This document shows positions 4,162-29,543 of a stretch of DNA of 41,959 nt, piece by piece. The notes under the pieces were generated by a model. That model was not told where the DNA came from and did not search any database. It was given only the letters and a program-made list of their open reading frames with translations. The DNA is from Allobrachymonas sp. GTDB taxonomy: Bacteria > Pseudomonadota > Gammaproteobacteria > Burkholderiales > Burkholderiaceae_C. A program made the translations under genes and the position numbers. The DNA is taken from positions 1 to 41,959 of the forward strand of contig JAUMWT010000016.1 of the NCBI GenBank assembly GCA_030529505.1, given 5' to 3'. How positions within the stretch are numbered: position 1 is the first letter of the stretch; each line of letters opens with the position of its first letter.

Positions 4162-4310
4162 TGCGCCTGTGAGCGGCGGTGGCCTGCTGGCAATGCTGGC
4201 AAACCGCTGGCTCGCCCGCCATGCCATCTGCGCTTCCCGGCTTTTTGCCGCTACGGTGCGGGGCCTCATCCGGCCTTTATGCCTTCAGTTAATCGTCAAA
4301 GGATCTTCTT

Positions 4311-5722: not shown

Positions 5723-5897
5723 GAGCCTGTTCAAAATCTCCTCGCGGGCGCTTGAAAATGGAAGCGGGCGGTCTGCGGCGTTGCAAATCTTGTCAACCCT
5801 CTTGCACATGTCGCACGGGCCATGCACTGCAATTTGCGCCTTGCATCCCATCCCGCTTCATATCCAATCACCTCACGATAAGATCGTGAACAGGCTC
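5723..5897 (+). mobile_element. MITE-like element, copy A (175 bp, TSD TAA)
   Basis: Bounded by the inverted termini GAGCCTGTTCA (left) and TGAACAGGCTC (right), and flanked on both sides by TAA (5720-5722 and 5898-5900), a 3-bp target duplication. The internal core (CTCGCGGGCGCTTGAAAATG followed by GAAGCGGGCGGTCTG) recurs in other copies in the window; this orientation is taken as forward. No coding capacity. The right-hand TAA runs directly into AAGGAG, the ribosome site of the DUF4870 gene. Near the right end TCACGAT-AAG-ATCGTGA forms a 7-bp hairpin. Confidence 0.85.
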
Positions 5898-5910
5898 TAA
5901 GGAGTCAATC

Positions 5911-6246
5911 ATGCAAAGCCAAGTATCAAAAGAATCACGCCATGCAGCTGTTATGGGCTGGGTCGGCTCGATATTTTTCGGGTTTGTACCGGGGCTGATC
6001 ATTTACCTCAAGAAAGAGCATGATGCATACGTCAAGAATCAGGCCAAGGAGATGCTGAACTGGTCCATCACGGTGAGCCTCGTCTATTGTGTATGTGCGG
6101 CCCTTTCTTTTGCTCATTTTTGGACGGGCTTTTGGGCTTTTTCGCTTGCGGGCGTTGTTCATTTGGGGTTTTGCATCATGGGGGCGATGGCGGCCTCCAA
6201 CGGCAAGGATTTCAAAACCCCTTGTACCTTGCGCTTGATCCAATGA
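5911..6246 (+). CDS. DUF4870-family small membrane protein
   Basis: A 111-residue integral membrane protein with about three hydrophobic segments (roughly residues 14-33, 50-68 and 72-94). The segment LIIYLKKEHDAYVKNQAKEM followed by LNWSIT closely matches the DUF4870 (Tic20-like) pattern, in which a charged loop precedes an NW/NF helix. Its function is not established. The ATG at 5911 has a strong AAGGAG at -13 to -8 that begins within the target duplication of MITE copy A, so transcription must start inside the element or upstream of it. Copy B lies about 80 bases after the stop in the opposite orientation, so the gene is bracketed by two copies. Confidence 0.75.
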   Translation: MQSQVSKESRHAAVMGWVGSIFFGFVPGLIIYLKKEHDAYVKNQAKEMLNWSITVSLVYCVCAALSFAHFWTGFWAFSLAGVVHLGFCIMGAMAASNGKDFKTPCTLRLIQ

Positions 6247-6328
6247 AATTTCGAAATGGCAGGCGATCGTCCAGCCATTTTCTTGTCCGTTTGATTCTTG
6301 CAAGAGCGTCTGTTGCTGATGTTTTTGA

Positions 6329-6516
6329 GAAGTGGTTCGAGATCTCATCGCGAGGCGCTTTGGGTGGAGTGGGATGGGCTGCAAAGCGCACATCTTTGTA
6401 TGTGGCGCAGTGCATAGCCCCCGCGCCACATGGGCAAAATGGCCGACAGGATTTGCGAGGCCGCAAACCGCCCGCTTCCATTTTCAAGCGTCCGCGAGGC
6501 GGTTTTGAACAGATTC
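6329..6516 (-). mobile_element. MITE-like element, copy B (188 bp, TSD TGA)
   Basis: Reverse orientation relative to copy A. The termini GAAGTGGTTCGAGATCTC (left) and TTTTGAACAGATTC (right) are diverged versions of the family inverted repeat, and TGA flanks both sides (6326-6328, 6517-6519). It contains the reverse complement of the family core (CCGCTTCCATTTTCAAGCG) and the arm segment CATCTTTGTATGTGGCGCAG shared with copies C and E. It lies between the convergent DUF4870 gene and pyrC'. Confidence 0.8.
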
Positions 6517-6567
6517 TGAGAGTGCTGGGAGCGTGAGCAGAGACGAGCGCCAGCTTGCCCCAGGCGT

Positions 6568-7875
6568 TTAACCTGCGTGGCTGGCCTCTGCGGCAAAGGC
6601 AATGCGTCCGTCGATGAGGGTGTGCGTGACGCGGCCGGGCAAGGTGCTTCCCTCAAAGGGGGTGAATTGGCCGTGGCTGCGCAGCTGCGGCTCCTGCACT
6701 TGCCAGTGGGCATCGGGGTTGACGATGCACAAGTCGGCCACGCCGCCGGTCAGCAGCTGCCCGATGCCGCTGGGCAGTTCGGCTCTGCCAGCGGCCAGGA
6801 TGTGCGCAGGCCGCTGGGTGACGGCGGCCAGCGCCTGCGGCAGCGGGATTTGATCCTGCTGCGCCCAGTGCAAGGTGAGCGAGAGCAGCAGTTCCAGCCC
6901 GGAAGCGCCCGGGGTGGCATCGCTGAAAGGCAGGATTTTTTCATCGGCATCCACCGGGGTGTGGTCGCTCACCAGGGCGTCGATCACGCCGTCACGCAGG
7001 GCGGCGCGCAGGACGGCGCGGTCGCTGGCGCTGCGCAGCGGGGGATTGAGCCGTGCGCGGCTGTCGAAGTAGCCGATGTCGGTTTCGCACAGGTGCAGGC
7101 TGTTGATGCTCACGTCACAGGTCATAGGCAGGCCGCGCGCGCGCGCCTGGCGCACCAGCTCCACGCCTGCGGCGCTGGAGAGGCGGCAGATGTGCACCCG
7201 CGCGCCGGTGGCTTCCATCAGCTCTGTAATCGTCATGATGGCCAGCGTTTCGGCCAGCACGGGCACGCCGGCCAGGCCCATGCGGGTGGCCAGTGCGCCG
7301 CTGGCGGCCACGCCGCTGCCCAACCAGGGATCCAGCGGGCGCAGCCACACGGTGTAGCCGAAGGTGGCGGCGTATTGCATGGCGCGCTGCAGCACGCGCG
7401 TGTTCTGAATGGCCTGGTCGGCCTGGCCAAAGCCGATGCAGCCGGCATCGGCCAACTCCACCATGCCGGTGAGTGCCTCGCCCTGCAGTTGCTGCGTGAG
7501 CGCGCCCAGGGGAAACAGCCTGGCCTGTTGCAGGCGGGCCGAGCGGAATTTGAGCATTTCCACCAGGCCGGGTTCGTCCAGCACGGGGTCGGTATCGGGC
7601 GGGCACACCAGGCTGCTGATGCCGCCGCTGACGGCCGCGGCCATTTCGCTTTCGAGCATGTGGCCGTGCGGGCCAGGTTCGCGCAGGCGCGCGGCCAAGT
7701 CCACCAGGCCGGGCAGCACGAGGTGGCCTTGGGCGTTGAGGGTGGTGTCGGGCACAAAACCTGCGGGCGCTGGGCCCACGCTCAGAATGCGGCCGTTGGC
7801 AATGGCGATGTCGGCCGGGGCGTCAAAGCCGTTGGCGGGGTTGATGACTCGGCCGCCTTGGATCAGGATGTTCAT
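6568..7875 (-). CDS. pyrC': Dihydroorotase-like protein, probably non-catalytic (PyrC')
   Basis: Amidohydrolase of the class I dihydroorotase family, 435 residues. Active enzymes bind zinc through an HxH motif before LREPG; here that stretch reads DLAARLREPG (59-68), so both His are replaced (A61, R63). The usual TDDG metal-ligand loop reads GFGQAD (about 148-153), the second His of the HI-H-ST motif is Arg (VHICRLSS), and the downstream HH motif is absent. SDHTP retains its Asp. This loss pattern is that of the inactive PyrC' known in Pseudomonas, which is required structurally for the aspartate transcarbamoylase dodecamer. It follows pyrB by 31 bases on the same strand, so the two are almost certainly co-transcribed. 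A catalytic pyrC is expected elsewhere in the genome. Confidence 0.88.
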   Translation of the reverse strand: MNILIQGGRVINPANGFDAPADIAIANGRILSVGPAPAGFVPDTTLNAQGHLVLPGLVDLAARLREPGPHGHMLESEMAAAVSGGISSLVCPPDTDPVLDEPGLVEMLKFRSARLQQARLFPLGALTQQLQGEALTGMVELADAGCIGFGQADQAIQNTRVLQRAMQYAATFGYTVWLRPLDPWLGSGVAASGALATRMGLAGVPVLAETLAIMTITELMEATGARVHICRLSSAAGVELVRQARARGLPMTCDVSINSLHLCETDIGYFDSRARLNPPLRSASDRAVLRAALRDGVIDALVSDHTPVDADEKILPFSDATPGASGLELLLSLTLHWAQQDQIPLPQALAAVTQRPAHILAAGRAELPSGIGQLLTGGVADLCIVNPDAHWQVQEPQLRSHGQFTPFEGSTLPGRVTHTLIDGRIAFAAEASHAG

Positions 7876-7906
7876 GGGCTGGTTTCCCTTGGGGCGTGGC
7901 TCGCAG

Positions 7907-8869
7907 TCAGGCGTCGTGGCTGGCCACGATGCTCATGGCGGCCATGCGCACGGCAATGCCGAAGTTGACCTGTTGCAGGATGACGCTGTGCGGGCCATCG
8001 GCCACGGCCGAGTCGATTTCCACCCCGCGGTTGATGGGGCCGGGGTGCATCACGATGACGTTGGGCTTGGCGTATTGCAGCACCTGTGGCGTGAGGCCGA
8101 AGCGTTTGAAATACTCTTGTGACGAAGGCAGCAGCGCGCCGTTCATGCGCTCGTTTTGCAGGCGCAGGGCGATCACCACGTCGCAATCGCGAATGCCTTC
8201 TTGCAAGGTGTGGCAAACGCGCACGCCCATCTCGGCCAGATTGCCGGGCATCAGGGTTTTGGGGCCGACCACGCGCACGTCGGGGCAGCCCAGGGTGAGC
8301 AGGGCGTGGATGTCGCTACGCGCCACGCGCGAATGCAGCACATCGCCCACGATGGCCACGCTCAGATTGGAAAAATCGCCCTTGTGGTGGCGAATGGTGT
8401 ACATGTCGAGCAGGCCCTGCGTGGGGTGGGCGTGGCGCCCGTCGCCCGCGTTGATGACGTGCACGTGCGGCGCGACGTTGCGCGCAATCAGGTAGGGCGC
8501 GCCCGATTCGCTGTGGCGCACCACGAACACGTCGGCGGCCATGGCGCTGAGGTTGGCGATGGTGTCGAGCAGGGATTCGCCCTTGGAGGTGGAGGAGCGC
8601 GCAATGTCGAGGTTGAAAACGTCGGCGCTCAGGCGTTTGGCCGCGATTTCAAACGTGGTGCGCGTGCGCGTGCTGTTTTCAAAGAAGAGGTTGAAAATGC
8701 TTTTGCCGCGCAGCAGCGGCACTTTTTTGACCTCGCGCGTGTTGACGCTCACGAACTGGGCGGCCGTATCCAGAATGTGCACGATGATGTCGCGCGGCAG
8801 CCCTTCGGTAGAGAGCAAATGGATCAGTTCGCCATGCTGGTTGAGTTGCGGATGGGGTGTGGCGGGCAT
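7907..8869 (-). CDS. pyrB: Aspartate carbamoyltransferase catalytic subunit (PyrB)
   Basis: Condenses carbamoyl phosphate with aspartate to N-carbamoylaspartate, the committed step of pyrimidine synthesis; cytoplasmic. It has 320 residues. The carbamoyl-phosphate loop FENSTRT is at 63-69, HPTQ at 148-151, and the C-terminal motif [11 protein letters not shown] is intact, so it should be active. pyrC' follows 31 bases downstream. In related genomes pyrR and yqgF commonly sit upstream; here the upstream 280 bases hold a transposase remnant and MITE copy C instead. Confidence 0.96.
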
Positions 8870-8959
8870 GTGCGGCAGATGAAGAGACGTTGCGGTGCAG
8901 GCCGAAGTTTAGCGGCTGTTGGGCCTGCCGCAATGCTCTTTTTCAAAGGGGCCGCGAGC

Positions 8960-9144
8960 GATGGGGCTGCGCGGGCGCTGGCTTCAGCGCCTGCAGCGCA
9001 GGCAAGTGGCAATGCCGCTTGGCACCGCTTGGCCGCCGAAGGCGTATCCGGCCTGTTTGACCGCAGCTCGCGCCCGCGGCGCCCGCCCAGGCGCTGGAGG
9101 CAGGCCAAGTCAAACGCGCCGTGGCGCTGCACACGCGCCCGTTT
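8960..9144 (+). pseudogene. Possible remnant of an IS481-type transposase N-terminus
   Basis: In one plus-strand frame the translation contains AWHRLAAEGVSGLFDRSSRP followed by RRPPR, which resembles the RYRAEGxAGLxDRSSRPHRSP region after the helix-turn-helix of IS481-family transposases. A one-base shift would continue as APAQALEAGQVKRAVALHTR and then a stop at 9145-9147. There is no start codon, no downstream DDE domain and no paired inverted repeat. It lies upstream of pyrB, and MITE copy C begins directly after the stop triplet. The call rests on one short motif. Confidence 0.45.
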
Positions 9145-9147
9145 TAA

Positions 9148-9334
9148 GAGACTGTTCAAGATCTCAACGCGGGGCGATTGGACAGAGTGCGAGATGGGAT
9201 GCAAGGCACACATCTTTGTATGTGGCGCAGCGCATGACCCGTGTGACATATGCAAGACGGTTGACAAAATTTGCAACTAAGCAGGCCGCCCGCTTCTGTT
9301 TTCAAGCGTCCGCGAGGAGATTTTGAGCAGGCTC
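9148..9334 (-). mobile_element. MITE-like element, copy C (187 bp), abutting a stop codon
   Basis: Reverse orientation. Termini are GAGACTGTTCAAGATCTC (left) and TTTTGAGCAGGCTC (right), around the family core (TTTTCAAGCGTCCGCGAGG) and the shared arm CATCTTTGTATGTGGCGCAG. The flanks are TAA (9145-9147) and TCA (9335-9337); these fit the TNA pattern but are not identical, so the duplication has decayed or the ends recombined. The right flank TCA is the complement of the TGA stop codon of the minus-strand desulfhydrase gene, so the element sits exactly against that stop. Confidence 0.8.
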
Positions 9335-10519
9335 TCAGACCACCCTGGCGTGGGCCACAGCGGGTGGCGCAAAGATGTCGTGGGCAGGCTCCGCTTCGAT
9401 GATGGTGGGCGGGCCGTTGGCGTCGTTGGCGGCTGGCGCCCATTCGGGGTCCATGCGCACCAGGGGCAAGGGATCGGGGGCCTGCGGGGCAGGCGCTGCT
9501 GGCTGCGCTGGGGCAGGTTGCTGCAAATGCTCGGCCAATGCGTCGGCATAGGCATACAGGCCGGGTGTGCCGCCCGAGTGCACAAAGACCACGGTCGTTT
9601 GCTTGCTCCATTGCCCGGCGCGGGCGGCGGCCAGCAGGCCGGCGAAGGCTTTGCCGGTGTAAACGGGGTCGAGCATCACGCCTTCGGTGCGGCCGGCCAG
9701 GCTGATGGCCTCCAGCCCGGCAGAGGACGGCACACCGTAACCCGGGCCGATTTGGGCGCCGTCCACCCGCACGGCTTGGCTGCCCGGCGGCAGGGGCTTG
9801 CGGCCCATCAGCATCAAAATGCCGTTGGCCAAGCTGGCCACCACGGGCGCAATGCGTTCTTGCGGGTAGAGCACACTGATGCCGTGCACTTGCGTGTGCG
9901 CGCCCGATGCGGCAAAGCCCGCCACCAGGCCGGCCTGGGTGCCGCCGCTGCCTGTGGTGCAAAACACGTGATCGGCTTGCAGGTTTTGTGAAGCGAGCTG
10001 GCGTTCGATCTCGCGCGCGCAACCCACATAGCCCCAGGCGCCTTGCACGCTGGAGCCGCCAAACGGAATGAAATAGGGCTTGCGCCGGGCCGCGCGCAGC
10101 TCTTGCATCAGCTTGCGGGCGTAGTCGCGGGCGTCTGCTTCGGGTTCGAGCATGTGCAGCTTGGCGCCGAAATTGCGCATCAACAGCACATTGCCGTTGC
10201 TGGTGTAGCTCTCGCTGCTGCGTGGCACCAGTTTGCTCAGTACCAGCTCGCAGCCCAAGCCGAAACGCGCGGCCACGGCAGCCGTCAAGCGGGCGTGGTT
10301 GGATTGCAGGCAGCCGGTGGTGACCAGGGTATCGGCGCCTTGCTCGATGGCCTCAGCCACCAGATATTCCAGCTTGCGCAGCTTGTTGCCTGCACCGCCC
10401 AGCGGGGCCATGTCATCGCATTTGAGGAAGATTCTTGCCTGGCAGCCCAGATGCTGCGGCAGGCTGCGCAACTCCACCAAAGGGGTGGGGGTAGGTAGAA
10501 GAGAGATTTTGGAAAACAT
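9335..10519 (-). CDS. D-cysteine desulfhydrase / ACC deaminase family PLP enzyme
   Basis: PLP-dependent lyase of the tryptophan synthase beta superfamily. D-cysteine desulfhydrase converts D-cysteine to pyruvate, sulfide and ammonia; the related L-cysteate sulfo-lyase and ACC deaminase cannot be excluded. The ATG at 10519 gives 394 residues beginning MFSKISLLPTPTPLVELRSL. The PLP-Lys motif GGAGNKLRKLEYL is near 42-54, the LQSNHARL substrate loop near 73-80, CTTGSGGTQAG is the phosphate-binding loop, and VFVHSGGTPGLYAYA comes near the C-terminus. About 60 extra residues, rich in Pro and Ala (QQPAPAQPAAPAPQAPDPLP onward), extend beyond the usual length of about 330 and end at MITE copy C. Confidence 0.8.
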   Translation of the reverse strand: MFSKISLLPTPTPLVELRSLPQHLGCQARIFLKCDDMAPLGGAGNKLRKLEYLVAEAIEQGADTLVTTGCLQSNHARLTAAVAARFGLGCELVLSKLVPRSSESYTSNGNVLLMRNFGAKLHMLEPEADARDYARKLMQELRAARRKPYFIPFGGSSVQGAWGYVGCAREIERQLASQNLQADHVFCTTGSGGTQAGLVAGFAASGAHTQVHGISVLYPQERIAPVVASLANGILMLMGRKPLPPGSQAVRVDGAQIGPGYGVPSSAGLEAISLAGRTEGVMLDPVYTGKAFAGLLAAARAGQWSKQTTVVFVHSGGTPGLYAYADALAEHLQQPAPAQPAAPAPQAPDPLPLVRMDPEWAPAANDANGPPTIIEAEPAHDIFAPPAVAHARVV

Positions 10520-10538
10520 GGTACTGCTGGGGAAAGGG

Positions 10539-10561
10539 GCCGGGCGGTGAAGCCGCCCGGC
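10539..10561. other. GC-rich hairpin in the leader of the desulfhydrase gene
   Basis: Perfect 9-bp stem GCCGGGCGG / CCGCCCGGC with a 5-base loop, about 20 bases upstream of the start at 10519. On the plus strand it is followed only by CTTTC, so it is a weak terminator candidate. On the minus strand it would lie in the 5' leader close to the ribosome site. Confidence 0.4.
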
Positions 10562-10834
10562 TTTCAAAAAACGGCACGCAAGGCAGGAAGCGCCTGACAG
10601 CGCATTCCGGAGCTCAAGAGTCTGGATTTGAAGCCGGCGACTTTCCAGGCGAACAGAAGCCATTAATAGCGTAATTTTGTTACGCAAATTACAAAATTCT
10701 ATACCCCAATGGGCAGCAAGTTTCGTGCCAATAGCAATTGTTGATTGCTTGCATCATCAAATTACGTGGTGGTTGGAGAAAGATGTCGGGCCAAGACCAA
10801 AGCCGACTCAGGGCAGGGGCTTTGTTTTGTCTGA

Positions 10835-10995
10835 GAGCCTGTTCAAGATCTCCTCGCGGGCGCTTGAAAATGGAAGCGGGCGGTCTGTGGCGTTGCAAAT
10901 CTTGTCCATAGCACGGGCTATGCCCTTCGATTTGCGCCTTGCATCCCATCCCGATCCACTTCCAATCACTTCACGATGAGATCTTGAACAGGCTC
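10835..10995 (+). mobile_element. MITE-like element, copy D (161 bp, TSD TGA)
   Basis: Forward orientation. Termini are GAGCCTGTTCAAGATCTC and GAGATCTTGAACAGGCTC, an almost perfect 18-bp inverted pair, with TGA on both sides (10832-10834, 10996-10998). The core is nearly the same as copy A but the central part is shorter, making this the shortest copy. It lies in the region between the divergent desulfhydrase and M23 peptidase genes. Confidence 0.9.
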
Positions 10996-10998
10996 TGA

Positions 10999-12333: not shown

Positions 12334-12381
12334 TACCAAGCGTGATGCCAAGCGCCGCTTGCGTTTGAGCGATGCGGCTGA

Positions 12382-12568
12382 GAGCCTGTTCACAGTCTCC
12401 TCACGGGCGCTTGAAGATGGAGTCGGGCGGTCTGCTGCGTTGCAAATCTCGTCATCCGTTTTGCTCATGTCGCACGGGGGCCATGCACTGCGCCACATAC
12501 AAAGATTTGTGCCTTGACCCCATCCTGCCCATATCCCATCGCCTCGCCTTGAGATCGTGAACAGGCTC
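12382..12568 (+). mobile_element. MITE-like element, copy E (187 bp)
   Basis: Forward orientation. Termini are GAGCCTGTTCACAGTCTC and GAGATCGTGAACAGGCTC, with the shared core (CACGGGCGCTTGAAGATGG) and arm (CTGCGCCACATACAAAGAT). The left flank is TGA (12379-12381). The right flank reads TTGA, which would be TGA after one inserted T. It lies 48 bases after the M23 peptidase stop, between that gene and the bactofilin gene. Confidence 0.85.
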
Positions 12569-13850: not shown

Positions 13851-14051
13851 GAGCTTGCGCAGTCTCCTCGCGATCGCTTGAACGATGGCGGCGAGCCGCT
13901 TTGCTGAGTTGCTTGTGGCGCGGCCAATCGTGTCATCCGCCTTGCCCCATGCTGCACGGGCGCCGCGCTGTGCCATCTCCTTTGACGGGCGTCTGGCGTT
14001 CCCATCCCATGCGCGCTCCGATCGCCTCGCCTTGAGATCATGAACGGGTTC
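13851..14051 (+). mobile_element. MITE-like element, copy F (about 201 bp, degenerate)
   Basis: Forward orientation and the most decayed copy. The left end reads GAGCTTGCGCAGTCTCCTCG and the right end GAGATCATGAACGGGTTC; the interior still aligns with the family (CTCGCGATCGCTTGAACGATGG near the left, CGCCTCGCCTTGAGATCATG near the right). No target duplication remains. It ends 31 bases before the ATG of the RNB exoribonuclease gene, so any promoter of that gene must lie in the element or before it. Confidence 0.65.
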
Positions 14052-14082
14052 CAAAAGAGCCGTGGGAGAATACCGCCCCATC

Positions 14083-17003: not shown

Positions 17004-17023
17004 TTGCCGCTCATCGGCCGACG

Positions 17024-17052
17024 AAGCCCGATCGCCTGATCGGGCTTTTTTT
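17024..17052 (+). terminator. Intrinsic terminator after the His-rich lipoprotein gene
   Basis: Perfect 10-bp stem AAGCCCGATC / GATCGGGCTT with a GCCT loop and a run of seven T residues (17046-17052). It separates the lipoprotein gene transcriptionally from the transporter genes. Confidence 0.92.
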
Positions 17053-17414: not shown

Positions 17415-19094
17415 ATGCATGCAAGTCTTCCTTTCCGTCCTGTGGCGCTGGCTTCTCTTGTCAGCGCATTGGCGCTGGGCCTGTCGGCCTGCGGCCCGCA
17501 GAACCAGTCGGCTCCGGCCAAAGAATCAGCCCCTGCGACTGAGGCCGCCACACCTGCTTCTGCGGCTGCGGCCACGCCTGATCAGGCGGCGCCCGGCACG
17601 CGCCTGACCCTGGCGGTGAAGGGCGAACCGCAGCAGGGCTATGACCCGGTCAAGGGCTGGGGCAATTACGGCAATCCGCTGTTCCAGTCCACCCTGCTCA
17701 AGCGCGACGACAAGCTCAGCCTGGTGGGTGATCTGGCGACGCAATGGGGCCTGTCCAAAGACAGCAAAACCTGGACGATCACTATTCGCGACGATGCCAA
17801 GTTTGCCGATGGCCAGCCGCTCACGGCCGAAGACGTGGCTTTTACGTTCGAAACGGCGCAAAAGGCGGCATCCACCGTGGATCTGGGCAATCTGGCTGGC
17901 GTCAGGGTCGTTAACCCCACGACGGTGGAAATCACGCTGCACAAGCCGCAAGTCACCTTCACCCACCTGCTGGCGACCTTGGGCATCGTGCCCAAGCATG
18001 CCTATGCCGACGGCTATGGCGAAGCGCCGCTGGGCTCTGGGCCTTTCAGACTCGTGTCGTGGAGCAAAGGCCAGCAGATGATTGCGGAGCCCAATCCGCA
18101 CTACTACGGCAAAAAGCCCGAATTCGAGCGCATCACTTTCCTCTTCACCGAAGACGATGCCACCGTGGCCGCCGCCAATGCCGGCCAGGTGAATGTGGCC
18201 AGCGTGCCGCCGGCCCTGTCCAGGCAGGTGCCGGGCAATATGGTCAAGGTATCGGTCAAAACCGTGGACAACCGCGGCATCATGTTCCCCACCGTGCCGG
18301 CACAGGGCCAGCAGACCGAAGAAGGCTTTGACCTGGGCAACAGCGTCACGGCCGATCCGGCCATTCGCAAAGCCGTCAACATGGCCATCAACCGCCAGCA
18401 ATTGGTCGATGGCGTGCTGGGCGGCCACGGCGTGCCCGCCTGGGGCGTGGCCGACAACCTGCCCTGGGACAACCCCGAGCACCGCCTGAGCGACAACGAC
18501 ATGGCAGGCGCCGAGAAGCTGCTGCAAGCCGCTGGCTGGAAGAAAAACGCCAACGGCGTGCTGGAAAAGAACGGCGTGCAAGCGCGTATTCCGCTGCTGT
18601 ATTTCTCGAACGACAGCACGCGCCAGGCACTGGCCTTGGCTGTGGCCGATATGGTCAAGCCCCTGGGCATCGTGTTTGAGGTGGCGGGCAAAACGCGCGA
18701 AGAGGTCAAGCGCCTCAAGCACTCCAGCGCCGTGCTGTACGGCTGGGGCCAGCACAGCCCGATCGAGATGTACAACCTCTACCTCAGCTCCAAGGCTGGC
18801 AAGGGCAGCTACAACACGGGCTTCTACAAAAACCCGAAAGTGGACGCTTACCTGGAAGCCGCCGAGCGCGCCAACAGCTTCGATGAGTCGCTGCCGCACT
18901 GGAAAAACGCCCAGTGGGATGGCAAAACCGGCCTGGGCATGAAGGGCGATGCGCCCTGGGCCTGGCTGGTCAACCTCGACCACGTGTACTTCGTCGACAA
19001 ATGCCTGGACATCGGCCCGCGCCAGATTGAGCCGCACGGTCACGGCTACCCCATCACCTGGAACGTGCAAGACTGGAAGTGGATGTGCAAGTGA
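17415..19094 (+). CDS. ABC transporter substrate-binding lipoprotein, family 5 (peptide/nickel type), paralogue 1
   Basis: Periplasmic, lipid-anchored binding protein for a Dpp/Opp/Nik-type importer, 559 residues. The signal peptide ends in the lipobox LSAC (Cys26) and is followed by an Ala/Pro/Ser-rich linker to about residue 62. The SBP_bac_5 features are GDLATQWGLSKDSKTWTITI, the FADGQPLTAEDVAFTFE motif, GSGPFRLVSW and AIRKAVNMAINRQQLV. The C-terminus EPHGHGYPITWNVQDWKW carries a short His cluster also present in paralogue 2. It has its own terminator, so it is probably expressed separately from the following operon. The ligand cannot be deduced from sequence alone; peptide, nickel or another metal-chelate are possible. 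Confidence 0.9.
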   Translation: MHASLPFRPVALASLVSALALGLSACGPQNQSAPAKESAPATEAATPASAAAATPDQAAPGTRLTLAVKGEPQQGYDPVKGWGNYGNPLFQSTLLKRDDKLSLVGDLATQWGLSKDSKTWTITIRDDAKFADGQPLTAEDVAFTFETAQKAASTVDLGNLAGVRVVNPTTVEITLHKPQVTFTHLLATLGIVPKHAYADGYGEAPLGSGPFRLVSWSKGQQMIAEPNPHYYGKKPEFERITFLFTEDDATVAAANAGQVNVASVPPALSRQVPGNMVKVSVKTVDNRGIMFPTVPAQGQQTEEGFDLGNSVTADPAIRKAVNMAINRQQLVDGVLGGHGVPAWGVADNLPWDNPEHRLSDNDMAGAEKLLQAAGWKKNANGVLEKNGVQARIPLLYFSNDSTRQALALAVADMVKPLGIVFEVAGKTREEVKRLKHSSAVLYGWGQHSPIEMYNLYLSSKAGKGSYNTGFYKNPKVDAYLEAAERANSFDESLPHWKNAQWDGKTGLGMKGDAPWAWLVNLDHVYFVDKCLDIGPRQIEPHGHGYPITWNVQDWKWMCK

Positions 19095-19115
19095 TGGCGC
19101 ACTGACGCAATGGCG

Positions 19116-19158
19116 AAAAGATGCCCGGCTTTGCTGCGTCAACGCCGGGCGTCTTTTT
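19116..19158 (+). terminator. Intrinsic terminator between the two binding-protein genes
   Basis: GATGCCCGGC (19120-19129) and GCCGGGCGTC (19144-19153) form a 10-bp stem with one G-U pair and a 14-base loop, followed by five T residues and preceded by AAAA. It lies 25 bases after the stop of paralogue 1. Confidence 0.85.
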
Positions 19159-19255
19159 CACTGGTCTGCTGGCGATGCGCTTCTCGTGCATGAGCGATAT
19201 CTGAAGAAAAGCGGATTTTTCGCACGTATTTGTCGGGTGAACGGGCTTGAATAGC

Positions 19256-19283
19256 TTGCAAATATATGACTTCGTGTTAGCAT
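19256..19283 (+). promoter_or_regulatory. Candidate promoter of the transporter operon
   Basis: TTGCAA (19256-19261), 16 bases, then TAGCAT (19278-19283), ending 30 bases before the ATG of paralogue 2. The surrounding DNA is AT-rich compared with the genes. TTGCAAAT is shared with the leader of paralogue 1. Confidence 0.45.
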
Positions 19284-19313
19284 CCTCTCACTTCATAAAC
19301 GGAGAGAAACTTC

Positions 19314-20987
19314 ATGAAAACTTCTTTTTCCCAGTCTTCCCTGAGCAAGGCCTGCGCGGCCCTGTTTGCCGGTTCTTTGCTGGCGCTGGCGGGCTGCTCG
19401 CAGCAAGCCTCCGCGCCTGCCAAGCAGGATGCTTCGGCTCCCGTGGCCGATCAGACCACGGCTTCTGCGCCCGCGGCGGCCGCTGCAACGGGCAAACGTC
19501 TGGTATTGGCCATTCGGGGCGAGCCCGGCCAGGGTTTCGACCCCATCAAAGGCTGGGGCCACTATGGCAACCCGCTGTTCCAGTCCACCTTGCTCAAGCG
19601 CGACGACAAGCTCGATCTGCATGGCGATCTGGCCACCAAATGGGAACTGTCGCAAGACGCCAAAACCTGGACCGTCACCATCCGTGACGATGTGAAATTC
19701 TCCGACGGCCAGCCGCTCACGGCCGACGACGTGGTCTTCACCTACGAGCAGGGCGCCAAGTCTGCCGGCACGGTGGACATGGGTGAGTTCGAGAGCATCA
19801 AGGCCCTCAACCCCACCACGCTCGAAATCAAGCTGAAAAAGCCGCACATTACCTTCGTGAATACGCTGGTGACCTTGGGCATTGTGCCCAAGCATGCTTA
19901 CAACGACAGCTATGCCGAAAACCCCATGGGTTCTGGCCCCTTCAAATTCGTTTCGTGGAACAAGGGCCAGCAGATGATCGTGGAGCCCAATCCCAACTAC
20001 TACGGCAACAAGTCCGAGTTTGAGCGCATCACCTTCCTGTACACCAGCGAAGACGCCACGGTGGCCGCTGCGCGCGCCGGGCAAGTCAACATGGCCGTGG
20101 TCACGCCCGCTACGGCTGACAACGTGCCCGAAAAAATGCAGCGCATGGTGGTCGAATCGGTGGATAACCGCGGCATCATGTTCCCGACAGAGCCGGCTGG
20201 CAAGAAAACCGAATCGGGCCGCCCCATCGGCAACGATGTAACGTCCGACGTGGCCATCCGCAAGGCCATCAGCATTGCGGTCGATCGCAAGAAGCTGAGC
20301 GAGGGCGTGCTCAACGGCTATGGCACGCCCGCCTGGAGCGTGGCCGATGGCCTGCCTTGGGACAACACCGAGCAGCGCCTGGGCGACAACGACATGGAAG
20401 GCGCCAAGGCCATGCTGGATGCCGCTGGCTGGAAAGTGGGCGCCAACGGCGTGCGCGAGAAAAATGGCAAGCCCGCGCAGTTCACCGTGCTCTATCCGGC
20501 GCACGACAATGTGCGTCAGGCGCTGGCCGTGGCCGTGGCCGACATGCTCAAGCCGCTGGGCATACAGATGGACGTATCGGGCAAGAGCTGGGACGACATC
20601 GAGCGCGACATGCACAGCTCGGCCGTGCTGATGGGCTGGGGCTCGCATGATCCGATCGATCTGTACCGCGTCTATTCCTCCAGGTTTGCCGGCGTGGAGT
20701 TCTACAACCCCGGCTTCTACAAAAACGATGCGGTGGATCAGCACATGGATGCGGCGCAAGCGGCCAGCAGCTTCGAGGCCTCCATCCCGCACTGGAAAAA
20801 TGCTGCCTGGGACGGCAAAACCGGCTTTGGCATGAAGGGCGATGCCGCCTGGGCTTGGCTGGTGAACCTGCAGCATATCTATCTGGTCGATAAATGTCTG
20901 GAAATCGGTCCGCGCCAGATCGAGCCGCATGGCCACGGTTATCCCATCACCTGGAACATGCAAGACTGGAAGTGGACATGCCAGTAA
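19314..20987 (+). CDS. ABC transporter substrate-binding lipoprotein, family 5 (peptide/nickel type), paralogue 2
   Basis: 557-residue paralogue of the preceding gene, similar over its whole length (for example GWGHYGNPLFQSTLLKRDDK and SDGQPLTADDVVFTYE), so the pair arose by tandem duplication. The lipobox is LAGC (Cys28) with an Ala/Ser/Pro-rich linker. The ATG at 19314 follows GGAGAG at good spacing. It is the first gene of the transporter operon: the stop overlaps the start of the His-rich permease by 10 bases, which implies translational coupling. The C-terminus EPHGHGYPITWNMQDWKW repeats the His motif. Different ligand preferences for the two paralogues are plausible but unproven. Confidence 0.92.
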   Translation: MKTSFSQSSLSKACAALFAGSLLALAGCSQQASAPAKQDASAPVADQTTASAPAAAAATGKRLVLAIRGEPGQGFDPIKGWGHYGNPLFQSTLLKRDDKLDLHGDLATKWELSQDAKTWTVTIRDDVKFSDGQPLTADDVVFTYEQGAKSAGTVDMGEFESIKALNPTTLEIKLKKPHITFVNTLVTLGIVPKHAYNDSYAENPMGSGPFKFVSWNKGQQMIVEPNPNYYGNKSEFERITFLYTSEDATVAAARAGQVNMAVVTPATADNVPEKMQRMVVESVDNRGIMFPTEPAGKKTESGRPIGNDVTSDVAIRKAISIAVDRKKLSEGVLNGYGTPAWSVADGLPWDNTEQRLGDNDMEGAKAMLDAAGWKVGANGVREKNGKPAQFTVLYPAHDNVRQALAVAVADMLKPLGIQMDVSGKSWDDIERDMHSSAVLMGWGSHDPIDLYRVYSSRFAGVEFYNPGFYKNDAVDQHMDAAQAASSFEASIPHWKNAAWDGKTGFGMKGDAAWAWLVNLQHIYLVDKCLEIGPRQIEPHGHGYPITWNMQDWKWTCQ

Positions 20988-23111: not shown

Positions 23112-23423
23112 AAGGATGATTTTTTCGCTGTTGGCAGCGGCATGCATCGCACAAGTCGATCATGCATGCCGCACAGCAGCGCACACAGGCACAGGGGGGC
23201 AATGCCGGTCGCGCAAGCGGCATGGCGGCAGCCTCTGGTGCATCAACAGCATGCCGCGCAACAGTTTTCGGCGTACGCCCGGTTTTGGCGGCATGGCACT
23301 TCCGGCAGAGGCTGCAAACCGGCGTTTGCACCCCACCCACGCGCTACCCGTGGGGCCTGGCCGGCTTGCGCTCCTGTGCCTGTGTGCGTTGTGGAATGGG
23401 CTTGAGCCGCAGCGGTGCGCTCA
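23112..23423. other. Gap inside the transporter operon, before MITE copy G
   Basis: About 310 bases after the second permease with no recognisable gene and no clear terminator. The first bases overlap chance frames only. Confidence 0.3.
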
Positions 23424-23686
23424 GAGCCTGTTCAAAGTCTTCTCGTTGTGTGCGTTACTTGGCAAAAGCAGTAGCTGCAAGGCGCAAAGCACGAAACACA
23501 GAGCACAAGCGGGCTAGCTGCCCGGCGAGCATTGGCAACGCAGCAGATGCAGCCTTTGCCGAGCAACCCTTTGTGCAAGGGGTGCAACAAATAACCATGC
23601 TCTTTGTTGCACCCCTTGCCAAGACAGCGAGTGATCCTGACCATTTGTTGCACTTGCCCACACATGGAAAGACTTTGAACAGGCGC
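23424..23686. mobile_element. MITE-like element, copy G (263 bp, TSD TCA), divergent interior
   Basis: Termini GAGCCTGTTCAAAGTCTT and AAGACTTTGAACAGGCGC match as inverted repeats at 17 of 18 positions, and TCA flanks both sides (23421-23423, 23687-23689). The ends match the family but the interior differs from all other copies, so this is a separate subfamily sharing the same terminal repeats. It contains a strong internal hairpin at 23575-23619. It sits between the permease and ATPase genes of one transporter. Confidence 0.85.
23575..23619. repeat. 17-bp perfect hairpin inside MITE copy G
   Basis: GCAAGGGGTGCAACAAA (23575-23591) and TTTGTTGCACCCCTTGC (23603-23619) are exact inverted repeats around an 11-base loop. 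No T-run follows, so it is not a standard terminator, but in mRNA it would make a stable stem between the permease and ATPase parts of the operon. Confidence 0.85.
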
Positions 23687-23802
23687 TCAGTGATCCGGGG
23701 ATGCCGTGCGTGCGGCGCTCGAGCCGCCTGCTCTTACTCTCTTATTGTTTGATGGCTTCAGGCCCGTTGCATTGATGGGGCTGGATGGAAGGAAACCGAT
23801 TG

Positions 23803-24621: not shown

Positions 24622-25231
24622 GGTGAAAAACCTGCGTTTCCGCTGGCAGGCTGACGGGCCCTGGATGTTGAATGGCGTCAATCTGCGCGTGGCGCCGGGC
24701 GAAACGGTGGGCATCATGGGCCGTTCGGGTTGTGGCAAATCCACCATGGCGCGTCTGCTCACGGGGCATATGCCCATGCAGGGTGGCGAGGTGCTGCTGG
24801 ACGGCAAACCTTTGCCCAGCACGGGCGCACGGCCTGTGCAACTGGTGATGCAGCATGCCGAGCTGGCCCTGAACCCGCGCTGGCGCATTGGCGAATCGCT
24901 GCGCGAAGGCTGGCAGCCCGATGCGCAAACGCTGCACAGCTTCGGCATTCGCGAGGCTTGGCTCAAGCGCTTTCCGCACGAACTTTCGGGCGGCGAGATG
25001 CAGCGCATTTCCATCGTGCGCGCCCTGATCCCGCAATTGCGCGTGCTCGTGGCCGATGAGCTGACTACCATGCACGACCCCATCACCCAGGTGCAAATCT
25101 GGCGCGCTTTGCAAGAACAGGCGCGCACGCGCGGCGTGGGCTTGCTGGCCATCAGCCACGATGCCGCCTTGCTGCAAGCCCTGAATGCGCGCGTGCTGCA
25201 CATGCGCGACGGCGTGCTGCACGCAGGCTGA
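24614..25231 (+). CDS. ABC transporter ATP-binding protein (DppF/NikE type), short form
   Basis: Second ATPase, 205 residues; the ATG at 24614 overlaps the stop of the previous gene and is preceded by GGAGG. Walker A GRSGCGKS is at 36-43, the signature is LSGGEMQR, and Walker B reads VLVADELTTMHDP instead of the usual DEPTSALD, keeping the catalytic Glu but with an altered D-loop. The H-loop is AISHDA. It is about 50-60 residues shorter than DppF/NikE and ends after the H-loop region, lacking the C-terminal HPYTxxLL tail. It may still pair with the complete ATPase to form an asymmetric dimer. A terminator follows about 95 bases later. Confidence 0.9.
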   Translation: MLEVKNLRFRWQADGPWMLNGVNLRVAPGETVGIMGRSGCGKSTMARLLTGHMPMQGGEVLLDGKPLPSTGARPVQLVMQHAELALNPRWRIGESLREGWQPDAQTLHSFGIREAWLKRFPHELSGGEMQRISIVRALIPQLRVLVADELTTMHDPITQVQIWRALQEQARTRGVGLLAISHDAALLQALNARVLHMRDGVLHAG

Positions 25232-25325
25232 CTCTGCATCTGTGACTTTGTCACCGCCGCATCAAGCGGCGCGTGTGCGGCAGCGTTGTTCAATTGGAGG
25301 CGCGACCTTCATGTCGCTGCCATGA

Positions 25326-25354
25326 AAACGGCCTGCTGTGAGAGCAGGCCGTTT
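25326..25354 (+). terminator. Likely terminator of the transporter operon
   Basis: Perfect 12-bp stem AAACGGCCTGCT / AGCAGGCCGTTT with a 5-base loop. The T-tail is only three bases, but the A-tract opposite supports a bidirectional terminator shared with the convergent small gene downstream. Confidence 0.7.
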
Positions 25355-25518
25355 GGCAGGTGGTGGCTGGATATTGAGCCTTTGCGCCAAGCGCTTTGAT
25401 TGATCGGGGTGAATGATTTCAGCGACTGACGCGGATTGACGCCGCTGTGTACGGTTGATGTTGCAGGCGCAAGTGGCACAAACGGGGGCAGCAAGCGCAG
25501 CTGCTGTTTGGGCTCGGT

Positions 25519-25686
25519 TCAGTGCACGCCAGGAGCGAGGGTCTCGGGTGCCTGCATGTTGCTGTTGGGGGCAATGGCGGCGGCTTGGTGATCGGCGTCG
25601 GAACGGTCCCAGGCCCAGGCGGCCAGTACGCCAAAAGTCAGCAAAATCAACAGGGCGGCCAGCAGGCGCGTCAACATGGCAGTCAC
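25519..25686 (-). CDS. Small single-pass membrane protein, unknown function
   Basis: About 55 codons from a GTG at 25686 that follows AGG by 8 bases; an ATG three codons inside gives 52 residues beginning MLTRLLAALLILLTFGVL. One strongly hydrophobic helix (about residues 5-23) is followed by WAWDRSDADHQAAAIAPNSN and a short polar tail. No family is recognised. Codon bias and the helix followed by a polar tail favour a real gene, but the evidence is modest. It converges on the transporter operon. Confidence 0.45.
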   Translation of the reverse strand: MTAMLTRLLAALLILLTFGVLAAWAWDRSDADHQAAAIAPNSNMQAPETLAPGVH

Positions 25687-25846
25687 GATCGGAACCTCGT
25701 TTTTTTGAATCGCGGTATTGTTGCAGAGCGCTTGGGGCTGCCCTGTGTCAAATGTCACGGCACACGCGCTGAGCGCAGCACTTCTTACCTGCGTTTACAG
25801 AAAAAGGGCGGCTCGTGCGTGAATCGCGAAGGTTTTGTTGCTTTTA

Positions 25847-26033
25847 GGGCCTGTTCAAGATCTCGGCGTAAGTGGGCAAAAAGCGGTTTGGGATGGGATG
25901 CAGGGCGCAAAACGCAAAACGCAAAACGCGGCCAATGGTGCGTGAACAGTGCGTGCTATTGGCAAGTTTTGCAACACCGCAGACCGCCCCAATCCGCTTG
26001 ATGGCTCGCCGTGCAGGGATTTGGAACAGGCGC
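25847..26033 (-). mobile_element. MITE-like element, copy H (187 bp, TSD TTA)
   Basis: Reverse orientation. Termini are GGGCCTGTTCAAGATCTC (left) and TTTGGAACAGGCGC (right), with TTA on both sides (25844-25846, 26034-26036). The interior keeps GGGATGGGATGCAGGGCGCAAA and the CGCAGACCGCCC core end, but includes a local tandem expansion of AAAACGC (three units near 25910-25930). It lies between the small membrane protein gene and amn. Confidence 0.8.
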
Positions 26034-26036
26034 TTA

Positions 26037-26537
26037 GGCCATGCACTTATGCGACACGGCCGATGCATCGTTGCCACGCAGATGAAGCGCTCAGATCAGC
26101 CACGGCCTTGAAAGCACACAAGTTGCAAACGGCATCGGCTGGGGGCGCTGGCCTTGTTGGCTGCCGCTGCGCCGTGACTGCCCGTGCGGGCAGCTGTGGC
26201 AGGGGGGATGAAGGGCTTGTCTGCGAAGCCCCAGCCAGGTGGCGCGGCACAGGCATCTGGCTCAAGCATCGGGCTCAGGCATTCATCTTTGGGAGCGATG
26301 CAAGACGGGCAGCGCAGGTGATTGCTTGCGTTGGCTTCGTGGCGCCTGGCTTGGGCATGCAGCTGGGGCCTTGCAAGCAGGGTCTGGCCAAACGCCGCGC
26401 GCAAAAGGCGTGTACAGACGGCCCATACAAACAGGCAATCAGCGAAAGGGGCGCTCAGCGAAAAGTGCACTCAGCGAGTCGCGCAAGGCTGGCGCCCTTG
26501 CGCTGCTCATCGCCACCTCCACTGCCTGGCCCGGGCG
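26037..26537. other. Gap downstream of amn, no gene recognised
   Basis: About 500 bases. A short imperfect direct repeat of about 16 bases (CAGCGAAAGGGGCGCT, then CAGCGAAAAGTGCACT) occurs at about 26440-26475. No protein family, terminator with a T-run or RNA gene is evident. Confidence 0.35.
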
Positions 26538-28040
26538 TTATTGAAAGGCCACTTCCTGAAAGCTGCGCAGCTTGCGGCTATGGAGTTGTTCCACGCCGTT
26601 TTCGCGCAGCAGCTCCAGCGCGCGGATGCCGATGCGCAGGTGCTGATCGACCCGTTGGCGGTAGAAGTGGTCGGCCATGCCGGGCAGTTTGATTTCGCCA
26701 TGCATGGGCTTGTCGCTTACGCACAGCAGGGTGCCGTAGGGCACGCGAAAGCGCAGGCCGTTGGCGGCCACGGTGGCGCTTTCCATGTCGATGGCAATGG
26801 CCCGGCTTTGGCTGAAGCGGCGCACGGGCAGGTTGTTGTCTTGCAGCTCCCAGTTGCGGTTGTCGGTGGTGGCCACCGTGCCGGTGCGCAGCACGGCCTT
26901 GAGGTCGGCGTCGCGCAACTGTGTTACGTCGGCCACGGCCTGTTGCAGGGCCTGCTGGATTTCGGCCAGCGCGGGTACGGGCACCCACAGCGGCAGGTCG
27001 TCGTCGAGCACGTGGTCGTCGCGCACATAGCCGTGGGCCAGCACGTAGTCGCCCAGCCGCTGGCTGTTGCGCAGGCCTGCGCAGTGGCCCAGCATGATCC
27101 AGGCGTGCGGGCGCAGCACGGCCACATGGTCGCTCATGGTTTTGGCATTGCTCGGTCCCACGCCGATATTGATCATGGTGATGCCGCTGTGCCCCGGCCG
27201 CACCAGGTGGTAGGCGGGCATTTGCGGCGGGCGCGTGGGGTGCGTGCCTTGCACGAAATCTGCAGGGGCGCCGTGGCGCATGTGGTGGGTGACGACGTTG
27301 CCCGGCTCCACGAAGGCGGTGTAGCCGCTCGCGTCATCTTGCATGGCCTGCTGGCCCAGGCGGATGAATTCGTCGATGTAGAACTGGTAGTTGGTGAACA
27401 GCACGAAGTTCTGAAAGTGCTGCGCGTCGGTGCCGCTGTAATGGCGCAGGCGCTGCAGGGAGTAGTCCACTCGCGGCGCGGTGAACAGGGCCAGCGGCTG
27501 CGGTGCGCCAGGTGGCAGCTCCAGCGTGCCGTTGGCGATGCTGTCGTCCATGGCGTACAGATCGGGCCAGTCGAAGCGCATCTTCATGCGCTGGCGCTGT
27601 TCGGGCGTCAGGCTGCCTTCGTGGTGCACGCTGGGATCCAGCGCAAAGTGCAGGGCAATGGGCTGCTGGCTGGTGCCGACTTCCAGGCTCAGATCGGTCT
27701 GGGCCAGCAGCAGCTCGAATTGCTCGCGGTAGTAATCGGCAAACAGATCGGGGGCGGTGAGCGTGGTTTGGTGCACGCCGGGGCTGGAAACAAAACCGTA
27801 GGTGCGGTGGATCTCGCCACGCGGCACGTCCACGGCGGCCTGCGTATGTACACGCACTTGCGGATAAAAGGCGCGGGCCTTGTGCGGCAGATCGCCTGCG
27901 GCCATGAAGAGTGCCAGTTCATGCCGCAAATGCTCGACGGCTTGCTGGTAAATGGTTTGCACCTGCGCCAAGGCTGCATCGGCATCGCTGAATGGCTGCG
28001 GGGCGATGTAGGGGGGTGTGTTGTCGTGTGCGTGGCTCAT
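26538..28040 (-). CDS. amn: AMP nucleosidase
   Basis: Hydrolyses AMP to adenine and ribose 5-phosphate, controlling adenylate pools; cytoplasmic. The ATG at 28040 gives 500 residues (MSHAHDNTPPYIAPQPFSDA), close to the family length; in-frame upstream starts would add up to 18 residues. The N-terminal AMP_N domain covers about 20-190. The nucleoside-phosphorylase-like C-terminal domain includes ITMINIGVGPSNAKTMSDH, WIMLGHCAGLRNSQRLGDYV, the ribose/base-binding block AIDMESATVAANG, and VSDKPMHGEIKLPGMADHFY. It is divergent from gluQ with 130 bases between starts. Confidence 0.94.
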   Translation of the reverse strand: MSHAHDNTPPYIAPQPFSDADAALAQVQTIYQQAVEHLRHELALFMAAGDLPHKARAFYPQVRVHTQAAVDVPRGEIHRTYGFVSSPGVHQTTLTAPDLFADYYREQFELLLAQTDLSLEVGTSQQPIALHFALDPSVHHEGSLTPEQRQRMKMRFDWPDLYAMDDSIANGTLELPPGAPQPLALFTAPRVDYSLQRLRHYSGTDAQHFQNFVLFTNYQFYIDEFIRLGQQAMQDDASGYTAFVEPGNVVTHHMRHGAPADFVQGTHPTRPPQMPAYHLVRPGHSGITMINIGVGPSNAKTMSDHVAVLRPHAWIMLGHCAGLRNSQRLGDYVLAHGYVRDDHVLDDDLPLWVPVPALAEIQQALQQAVADVTQLRDADLKAVLRTGTVATTDNRNWELQDNNLPVRRFSQSRAIAIDMESATVAANGLRFRVPYGTLLCVSDKPMHGEIKLPGMADHFYRQRVDQHLRIGIRALELLRENGVEQLHSRKLRSFQEVAFQ

Positions 28041-28170
28041 GGGTCTCATCTGGCGGCTGTGCTGCTGCGGCCCATTGTAGGCAGGCGGCTGCAAGTGGTG
28101 GCTGTGCTGGGCCGAGGCGTCTGGCTTGGCACGAAACGGCCTCGGCTACCATGCAAGGCCCAGATACGTG

Positions 28171-29214
28171 ATGCACCACGCCTTTTTCACCATGCCGCCC
28201 GCCGCTGCTTCTTCGCCCCTTGCCACAGCGCCCTGCACCAATCGCTACGTGGGCCGCTTCGCGCCCTCGCCCACGGGGCCGTTGCATGCGGGCTCGCTGG
28301 TGGCGGCTTTGGCCAGCTGGCTCGATGCACGCGCGCACGGCGGCATCTGGCGCGTGCGCATTGAAGATGTGGACACCGCCCGCTGCAGCGCCCAGGCGCA
28401 CGCCGCCATCTTGCGACAGTTGCAGCAGCACGGCCTGCGGCCTGATGGCGAGGTGCTGGTGCAATCGCAGCGCAGCGCCGTGTACCAGCAGGCCTTGGAT
28501 GGCTTGCGGGCGAAGCATCTGGTGTACCCCTGCAGCTGCTCGCGCCGCCAGATTGCGCAGGCCCTGCAAGCACAGGGTGATGAGCGCGCGCGCCACGGTG
28601 AGTTGATCTATCCTGGAACGTGCAGGCCTGGTCGGGCTGCGTTGGGTGCGCCGGTGCTTGGGCGTGAGCCGAAAGCGGCCTGCGCATCTGCTCCTCCTGT
28701 CAATCGGGCATGCGCCTGGCGTTTGCACGTGGCAGCCTGCCTGCAACAGCAGGGTTTGGCGGCGGATGCCACCACGACTTGGCACGACCGGCGCCTGGGC
28801 ACGCAGCATCAAATCGTGGCGCAAGCCGTGGGCGACTTTGTGCTGCGCCGATCGGATGGCCTGTGGGCTTACCAGCTGGCCGTGGTGGTGGACGATGCCG
28901 CCCAGGGCATCACCCACGTGGTGCGCGGCGAAGACCTGGCCGACAACACCCCGCGCCAGATCGTGCTGCAGCAGGCGCTGGGCCTGCCCACGCCGCAATA
29001 CTTGCACACGCCGCTGGTGCGCGGTGCCGATGGCGACAAGCTTTCCAAGCAAAACGGTGCGGCGGCCTTGCCCGATGGCGATGCGGCTGGCTTGGTGCGC
29101 AATCTGCAAGCGTCCGCCCGGGTGCTGGGCTTGCCTGCCGTGGCAGCGGCCACGCCCGAGCAGGCCCTGGCGCAGTGGGTGGGGCCTTGGCGGCAGCGTT
29201 GGCTGGGCGGATAA
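28171..29214 (+). CDS. gluQ: Glutamyl-Q tRNA(Asp) synthetase
   Basis: Truncated glutamyl-tRNA-synthetase paralogue that attaches glutamate to queuosine at the wobble position of tRNA(Asp); cytoplasmic. From the ATG at 28171 it has 347 residues. The class I HIGH-equivalent [13 protein letters not shown] is at 30-42 and the KMSKS-equivalent KLSKQ begins at 290. Zinc-binding residues C121, C123 and Y147xxxC151 are present, as in E. coli YadB, and the anticodon-binding domain of GluRS is absent. The start is uncertain: an ATG seven codons later would also serve. It is longer than E. coli GluQ because of an insertion near 150-180. Confidence 0.92.
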
Positions 29215-29356
29215 GCGCAAGTGGCTGGCAAGCGATCGGCATTGGAATGCAATTGGGCTGGATACAAGCAGCCCTGGGCCGTTCGCAAGGGGAAGTGGGG
29301 CCTGCGCGTGCGCTGCAAGCTTGACTGCGATCAGGTCGCAGATAAGGCAGCGGTAA

Positions 29357-29543
29357 GAAGCGGTTCAAAGTTTCAACGTGAAGCGGTTGGACAGCGCGCG
29401 GAATGGAACGCTAGGCGCAAACCCGAGGGCATCGTGAAGCGCATGGCCCGAGTGACATGGGCAAGATGAACGCCAAGATTGGCAACGCCGCAAACCGCCT
29501 GCCTCCATTTCCAAGCACCCGTGAGGAAATTTCGGGCAGGTTT
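29357..29543 (-). mobile_element. MITE-like element, copy I (187 bp, degenerate ends)
   Basis: Reverse orientation. The left end GAAGCGGTTCAAAGTTTC and right end GGGCAGGTTT are diverged, but the interior keeps the family core (CGCAAACCGCCTGCCTCCAT, then TTCCAAGCACCCGTGAGG) and the canonical 187-bp length. The left flank is TAA (29354-29356) and the right flank CAA, so no duplication survives. It lies between gluQ and trmB. Confidence 0.7.

Follow-up and report, generated by a model that had tools for sequence, protein, structure and literature searches.

A high-copy MITE family of Allobrachymonas shares its ends with an IS5-type insertion sequence and carries a folded core found in elements with many different ends

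The window analysed here, i.e. the whole stretch of 41,959 nucleotides read from contig JAUMWT010000016.1 of an Allobrachymonas sp. draft assembly (GCA_030529505.1), carries nine related repeat units, all of them at the coordinates named by a preliminary description of this DNA (Table 1). Five are 187-188 bp long and the others measure 175, 161, 201 and 263 bp. These units have no transposase gene and are bounded by inverted GAGCCTGTTCA-type ends (GAGCCTGTTCA..TCTC); five of the nine are flanked by exact 3-bp duplications of the form TNA, as previously described. They belong to a real family of miniature inverted-repeat transposable elements (MITEs) whose ends are also those of an IS5-type transposon in this genome; apart from its copy number, the family is ordinary in this respect. 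The unexpected part is that elements with many different ends contain one and the same folded core. When a profile was started from eight window copies and refined by iteration on the window and 400 kb of sampled stretches, it recovered the same nine places and no tenth unit in the window at E<1e-4.

Table 1. Coordinates of the nine MITE copies and of the clearest hairpin core in the window
Feature	Position	Strand	Length (bp)	Flanking 3-mers	Core (strand)	Remarks
MITE copy 1	5723..5897	+	175	TAA/TAA, duplication	5766-5854 (+)	
MITE copy 2	6329..6516	-	188	TGA/TGA, duplication	6371-6473 (-)	
MITE copy 3	9148..9334	-	187	TAA/TCA	9191-9291 (-)	
MITE copy 4	10835..10995	+	161	TGA/TGA, duplication	10878-10952 (+)	
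MITE copy 5	12382..12568	+	187	TGA/TTG	12425-12526 (+)	
MITE copy 6	13851..14051	+	201	GCA/CAA, no duplication		Degenerate ends
MITE copy 7	23424..23686	-	263	TCA/TCA, duplication		Long size class; within transporter gene cluster
MITE copy 8	25847..26033	-	187	TTA/TTA, duplication	25890-25989 (-)	
MITE copy 9	29357..29543	-	187	TAA/CAA	29400-29500 (-)	
Hairpin core, clearest window example	10878..10952	+	75			85.6 bits with model R1; one of the 31 source sequences of R1

The partner of these units was found elsewhere in the same genome, where the transposase domain PF01609 (DDE_Tnp_1) matches 11 places (105.7 bits over a 172-residue fragment for the partner transposase). A terminal motif, mostly GARCCTGTTCACGATCTT, starts at most 3 bp from the transposase match at ten of them, the eleventh being a left-end fragment. 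Eight of the 11 places (L013-L023) are within 300 bp of a contig end, as expected of repeats that break assemblies, and intact copies of the partner insertion sequence (IS) are probably collapsed or missing in the draft. Related IS are present in Allofranklinella, Vandammella, Lampropedia, Xenophilus, Nitrosomonas and other genomes. Among the best 80 of 401 such loci, both ends were obtained for 69; 61 of these IS are 840-850 bp long and 43 have identical 3-bp flanks, all 43 of the TNA form. The ends and the target rule of the IS agree with those of the MITEs. TNA duplication marks the IS1031 subgroup of the IS5 family. The PF01609 loci and the related IS thus bear out the proposal that the units are MITE-like, with the ends of an IS5-type IS duplicating TNA, and that the transposase is not encoded in the window. 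The IS transposase, a DDE enzyme, would bind the shared ends and move the MITEs in trans.

The further suggestion that the units derive from such an IS is not supported. When the MITE nested in one of the transposase genes (locus L017, see below) is aligned with a related IS (L047), similarity ends after 17-18 terminal bp; the interior is not homologous to the IS and is a hairpin module that also occurs with unlike ends. Since only these terminal bp are common to both, the MITEs are not shrunken IS copies, and an origin by internal deletion of the IS was rejected.

The window aligns with congeners in long blocks at about 68-88% identity. These blocks end short of all nine units, in keeping with the statement that the units lie only between genes. 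Only short alignments reach into window elements, namely those to an element of the congener G007 (C295) that bears the core but differs in its ends, and two end matches of 34-35 bp in G007. Copy 5 has no full-length match in any of eight congeners; in G007, a single element (L006) has the core, with GAGGCTGTTTGCAAAAT ends. At seven of the nine window sites, the element is absent from at least one congener that has both flanks. Absence is read from the gap at 9148, 10835, 12382, 13851 and 23424, and from G001, which has only about 95 and 113 bp, at 25847 and 29357; the sites at 5723 and 6329 share one gap, which is not comparable and holds other sequence in G007 and G008. Relatives therefore do not carry the same sequence at all nine sites, a situation that the preliminary description had set against recent transposition. 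An insertion can be read in L017, where a 173-bp MITE with TCA on both sides interrupts the partner transposase gene, while no interruption is present at these codons in L013, which comes from the same genome, or in the related IS L047. Hence, the search for empty sites succeeded only through this nested, paralogous case, the window sites showing absence with no readable single TNA.

Three observations concern the surroundings of individual elements. The region around copy 7 (window 23113-23802) spans 690 bp, against 6, 12 and 143 bp between aligned blocks in three congeners, i.e. about 430 bp of extra DNA beyond what the 263-bp element explains. Copy 1 (window 5723-5911) ends 13 bp upstream of the start codon (ATG) of a DUF4870 gene; immediately after its TAA duplication comes GGAG, which may serve as a ribosome-binding site. 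At 2630-2911 of locus L017, a decayed element of the GARCCTGTTC type contains another one, 143 bp long and bounded by GGGCCTGTTCACACTATT-type ends.

The family is abundant in its own genome, the assembly of which comprises 100 contigs and 2.39 Mb at a completeness of 83.5%. If at most two mismatches are allowed, the end motif GAGCCTGTTCANNNTCTC occurs 188+202 = 390 times there, against 0+1 for the reversed pattern, and is therefore not due to chance. In two contigs picked for their length (340 kb), 26 copies were found at E<1e-10, which extrapolates to about 183 in the assembly; three more 20-kb stretches, picked for holding matches, were excluded from this rate. The 42-kb window contains 9 copies where 3.2 are predicted (Poisson P 0.006, before correction for the choice of the window). 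The sample and the window together hold 58 merged places, 41 of which, including a few fragments, have both ends within three mismatches. The flanking 3-mers are identical at 17 of the 41 places, 16 times as TNA, whereas 2000 re-pairings averaged 5.1 and never exceeded 14. Copy 5 was also used as query in a DNA search (40 scored among 247 first-look candidates); the other full-length copies listed are 76-84% identical to it, which argues against one very recent burst. Within the host's family, the distribution of the end motif (one mismatch) is very patchy: 268 matches in the own genome, 42-210 in each of six others (G109, G210, G284, G346, G379 and G408) and none in 197 of the 399 sampled genomes. 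The density had been called very high for bacterial MITEs; it is high but not unprecedented, since a review (PMC10969869) puts Correia elements at more than 120 copies in Neisseria gonorrhoeae and ERIC at 711 in Photorhabdus.

The middle of copy 4 is a core of about 74-75 bp. Other genera of the host's family have this core too, and some of the elements that contain it there differ in their ends; the 161-bp length of this compact copy is likewise found again in other genera. A covariance model built from 31 cores (R1) matches seven of the nine window copies at E<=1.1e-4 and an eighth, copy 7, weakly (23468-23552 on the minus strand, 44 bp from the left end, E 0.003), while copy 6 at 13851 has no recognisable core (best score 12.7 bits). 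R1 was used for these counts because an earlier regular expression missed copies with a longer inner loop. At E<=1e-5, R1 detects the core in 39 out of 200 genomes in the order, or 34 out of 182 if only good ones are counted, and in 29 out of 274 in the class (24 out of 235 good ones), only 24 or 17 candidates being scored per genome and the own genome and others of the same family being included. The core-bearing element L141, used as query, matches three of 72,556 plasmid records, all from Burkholderiales (Cupriavidus, Mitsuaria and Comamonas), and none of 50,697 phages. A fourth plasmid element, from Diaphorobacter, was found by its ends and has a core scoring 78.4 bits, so the three matches are a lower bound. 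The named IS and plasmid relatives agree with the placement near Comamonadaceae in the preliminary description. No published description of the core-bearing family was found in the literature searched, although an earlier one may stand in an account of Polaromonas JS666 that a review cites for MITEs.

The elements share a layout in which the core, about 74 bp long, is enclosed by two arms that pair with each other, each of about 25 bp and variable in sequence, and these in turn by the two ends. The order and class searches gave 48 loci, and in 42 of them the core is flanked within 260 bp on either side by inverted repeats matching at 14/15 or better, against 1 of 90 control windows centred 900 bp away, although some of these repeats may be arms rather than termini since the arms also pair. 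A wider set of 108 core loci omits four of these 48 because of their position or contig ends, draws many from G283, G042 and G088 and contains one site twice. In this set, 93 loci have inverted ends at 13/15, with 39 single elements (152-171 bp), 47 double ones, of which 44 measure 260-290 bp, and 7 others; the size classes lie at about 162 bp and 267 bp. In 91 of the 93, the distance between the core and at least one end is 38-54 bp, with about 44 bp as the usual value. Moreover, a second, inverted core was recognised in ten plus five long elements, the two starts being mostly 105-110 bp apart (91-138 overall).

The ends vary. Among 82 elements with 14/15 repeats there are 22 end classes, a number that includes variants differing only by a shift, and about 15 are visibly unlike by eye. 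Two end types also bound elements with transposase sequence. TAGTGTAGTGTTTCAC ends bound a 1174-bp element encoding a 359-aa DDE_3 protein on a Polaromonas plasmid, which we take to be of the IS630 type, and GGCAACGCTGAACAAG ends bound an 841-bp element with a DDE_Tnp_1 fragment. No partner IS for GGGACCCTCTGCACGAATC and AGGGCCTGTTCACACTA was found in plasmids, some records of which are nearly unannotated.

The core was also approached from the ends. Twenty regions with two nearby ends were picked by hand from the listed end-motif places, five of them in the own genome (four facing pairs); four further facing pairs come from genomes already searched for the core. Sixteen of the 20 are facing pairs 170-298 bp apart, and 15 of these have the core (the inner part of L259 is deleted; the L253 pair has no core). 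In genomes not searched earlier for the core (G345, G316, G371, G218 and G165), it is present in seven of eight facing pairs. The remainder comprises L270, which is not an element, and three core-less hairpins of 46-49 bp (L264, L265 and L266, from G216 and G408). In these mini elements, a spacer of 10-13 bp separates two 18-bp ends that face each other, and two of the three have exact TNA duplications (TTA and TAA).

Elements may also meet each other or an IS. At L019:351-552, L015:1303-1498 and L042:4956-5261, neighbouring elements are separated by no more than 3 bp, which looks as though one had inserted into the target duplication of the other. In Xenophilus sp. Marseille-Q4582 (L092:2875-2947), a core-bearing stretch stands in place of the left part of an IS copy, which the element seems to have replaced or truncated.

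Copy 4 folds as a single hairpin, with z-scores against shuffles of -5.6 as DNA and -9.5 as RNA; the whole element L141 reaches -12.7 as RNA. Covariation was counted on the structure predicted from each of two alignments, A1 with 31 cores found by sequence alone and A4 with 38 distant cores aligned without structure. In A1, both sides are changed in 35 cells, whereas shuffles give 10.5 and slid controls 2-7. In A4, there are 142 such cells, against 42.0 in shuffles (standard deviation 5.0; none of 500 reaches the observed count) and 24-37 in slid controls; they affect 16 of 18 pairs, and only 7 cells are changed on one side. Pairing is almost entirely Watson-Crick: A4 without one nearly always G-T pair has 588 Watson-Crick, 10 G-T and 47 mismatched cells, and A1 has 528, 5 and 23, respectively, after removal of three mostly G-T pairs (77 such cells; one of the pairs also varies). 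Unpaired T-T positions and a G-T pair in GCGTTGC / GCGCCTTGC are kept across the sampled class. When 38 single elements are compared in the 592 pairs that differ in their ends, identity is 0.74 in the core (0.43 when shuffled) and 0.46 in the arms (0.42 when shuffled), a contrast due partly to selection since the core was the search key; arms of one element pair at 0.62, those of different elements at 0.46. The near-exclusive Watson-Crick covariation suggests that the core is a DNA structure.

Several other explanations have to be weighed against a conserved DNA module. The core could be an RNA element: folded transcripts across the MITE would serve as terminators or be cut by RNase III, and the structure would be kept for this reason. 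Whole elements indeed fold as RNA far better than shuffles (L141 and copy 4); RNase III cleavage of Correia-containing transcripts is also reported in passages of PMC10969869. However, selected RNA normally wobbles more, and the scarcity of G-T in both alignments points to a DNA structure, or to correction by template switching, rather than to RNA. In addition, Rfam gives no match in the window at gathering scores and none in six core-bearing loci at E<=1, so that a known RNA family was rejected and an RNA role in general appears improbable to us. Template switching during replication would keep the stems matched by itself, and covariation would then be no proof of function. The predominance of two-sided, Watson-Crick changes in A4 is what such correction predicts, but it would erase the T-T positions and the G-T pair in GCGTTGC / GCGCCTTGC; their persistence argues against pure correction, which we consider a rather unlikely explanation.

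The shared core might instead reflect ordinary descent from one old MITE, with horizontal spread, ends drifting along with related transposases and a core without any role. Several end types are alike (GGAACCTCTGATTAAATC, GGGAAGCTCTGAACAAGTCC and GGCAACGCTGAACAAGTCC) and the TNA-flanked mini elements do without the core, as such descent would allow. Other ends are unlike, TAGTGTAGTGTTTCAC belonging to an element with a DDE_3 transposase, and the arms are near background while the core is not, with the reservation on selection made above; we therefore regard descent alone as possible rather than probable. Finally, the units recall repetitive extragenic palindromic (REP) sequences and REPINs, moved by a RAYT (Y1) transposase, in being palindromic and present in many copies, and Y1_Tnp is found in eight of 11 core-bearing genomes. 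It has no match in the other three (G284, G346 and G109, 99% complete and with many copies), and in the own genome (G000) all that matches is a fragment interrupted by stops. The units here are bounded by IS ends and TNA duplications, neither of which is known as a REP feature. With no consistent Y1 partner, a REPIN identity was rejected and looks highly improbable.

We conclude that the nine units are very probably MITEs that share their ends with an IS5-type IS of their own genome and have as interior a core-bearing hairpin combined with the ends of several transposases. The core would be a conserved module of folded DNA joined to these various ends, and our best guess is that it helps the element to persist. 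A number of points weigh against this conclusion. No intact full-length partner IS was seen in the draft assembly. Single TNA cannot be read at the nine sites, where congener intergenic DNA is too diverged, and the nested site, which reads TCT in L013, TCG in L047 and TCA in L017, is paralogous and not an identical empty site. The core match is weak in the nested MITE (22.6 bits) and in copy 7 (24.8 bits), and no second core was recognised in other long elements (L252, L260 and L262). The TNA-flanked mini elements indicate that the core is not needed for insertion. As for covariation, the A4 cores were found with a structure-scoring model that favours paired stems, and their further pair types do not exceed those of shuffles (141 of 500). 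More speculatively, the core could be the centre of a transposase-agnostic genomic parasite, kept for its structure and its unpaired bases, whose one-core and two-core elements would wear the ends of whichever IS family is active (IS5-type, IS630-type or others) across the class of the host and be recognised, folded as single strand or cruciform, by a protein; we put this forward tentatively, as an unlikely extension.

Apart from the MITEs, the window contains two tandem pairs of similar genes. The pair at 2887-5447 encodes two T2SSE ATPases, presumably PilT/PilU-like, and the pair at 17415-20987 encodes solute-binding proteins of family 5, an assignment that rests on Pfam for the first gene and on DNA similarity for the second.

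Known systems resemble these elements in part. Correia elements (CREE/NEMIS) duplicate TA instead of TNA and are linked to IS5-family transposases; their ends differ from those described here. Like the window MITEs, they are short and non-autonomous, with inverted ends and more than 100 copies in a small genome, and the passages of PMC10969869 on them describe no core common to elements with other ends. ERIC and other high-copy enterobacterial repeats are also intergenic, with tens to hundreds of copies according to passages of the same article (PMC10969869); IS ends and TNA duplications distinguish the units studied here. In common with IS5-family MITEs in general, our units have ends and TNA duplications that match an IS5-type IS of the same genome, but their interior is not an IS remnant. 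The core itself recalls integron attC sites, in which folded DNA likewise combines unpaired bases with Watson-Crick stems that are free to vary. Unlike attC, it sits in MITEs and not in cassette arrays, and RYYYAAC and GTTRRRY boxes were not seen by eye in the 38-core consensus.

In the usual account, a MITE is a shrunken copy of one IS. Here, it is the interior that is conserved and the ends that vary, across the order and beyond and in two preferred sizes. Model R1 provides a searchable model for a repeat that has no match in Rfam. The combination of a conserved interior with differing ends suggests that MITE interiors may be units of selection, or that MITEs may switch transposases.

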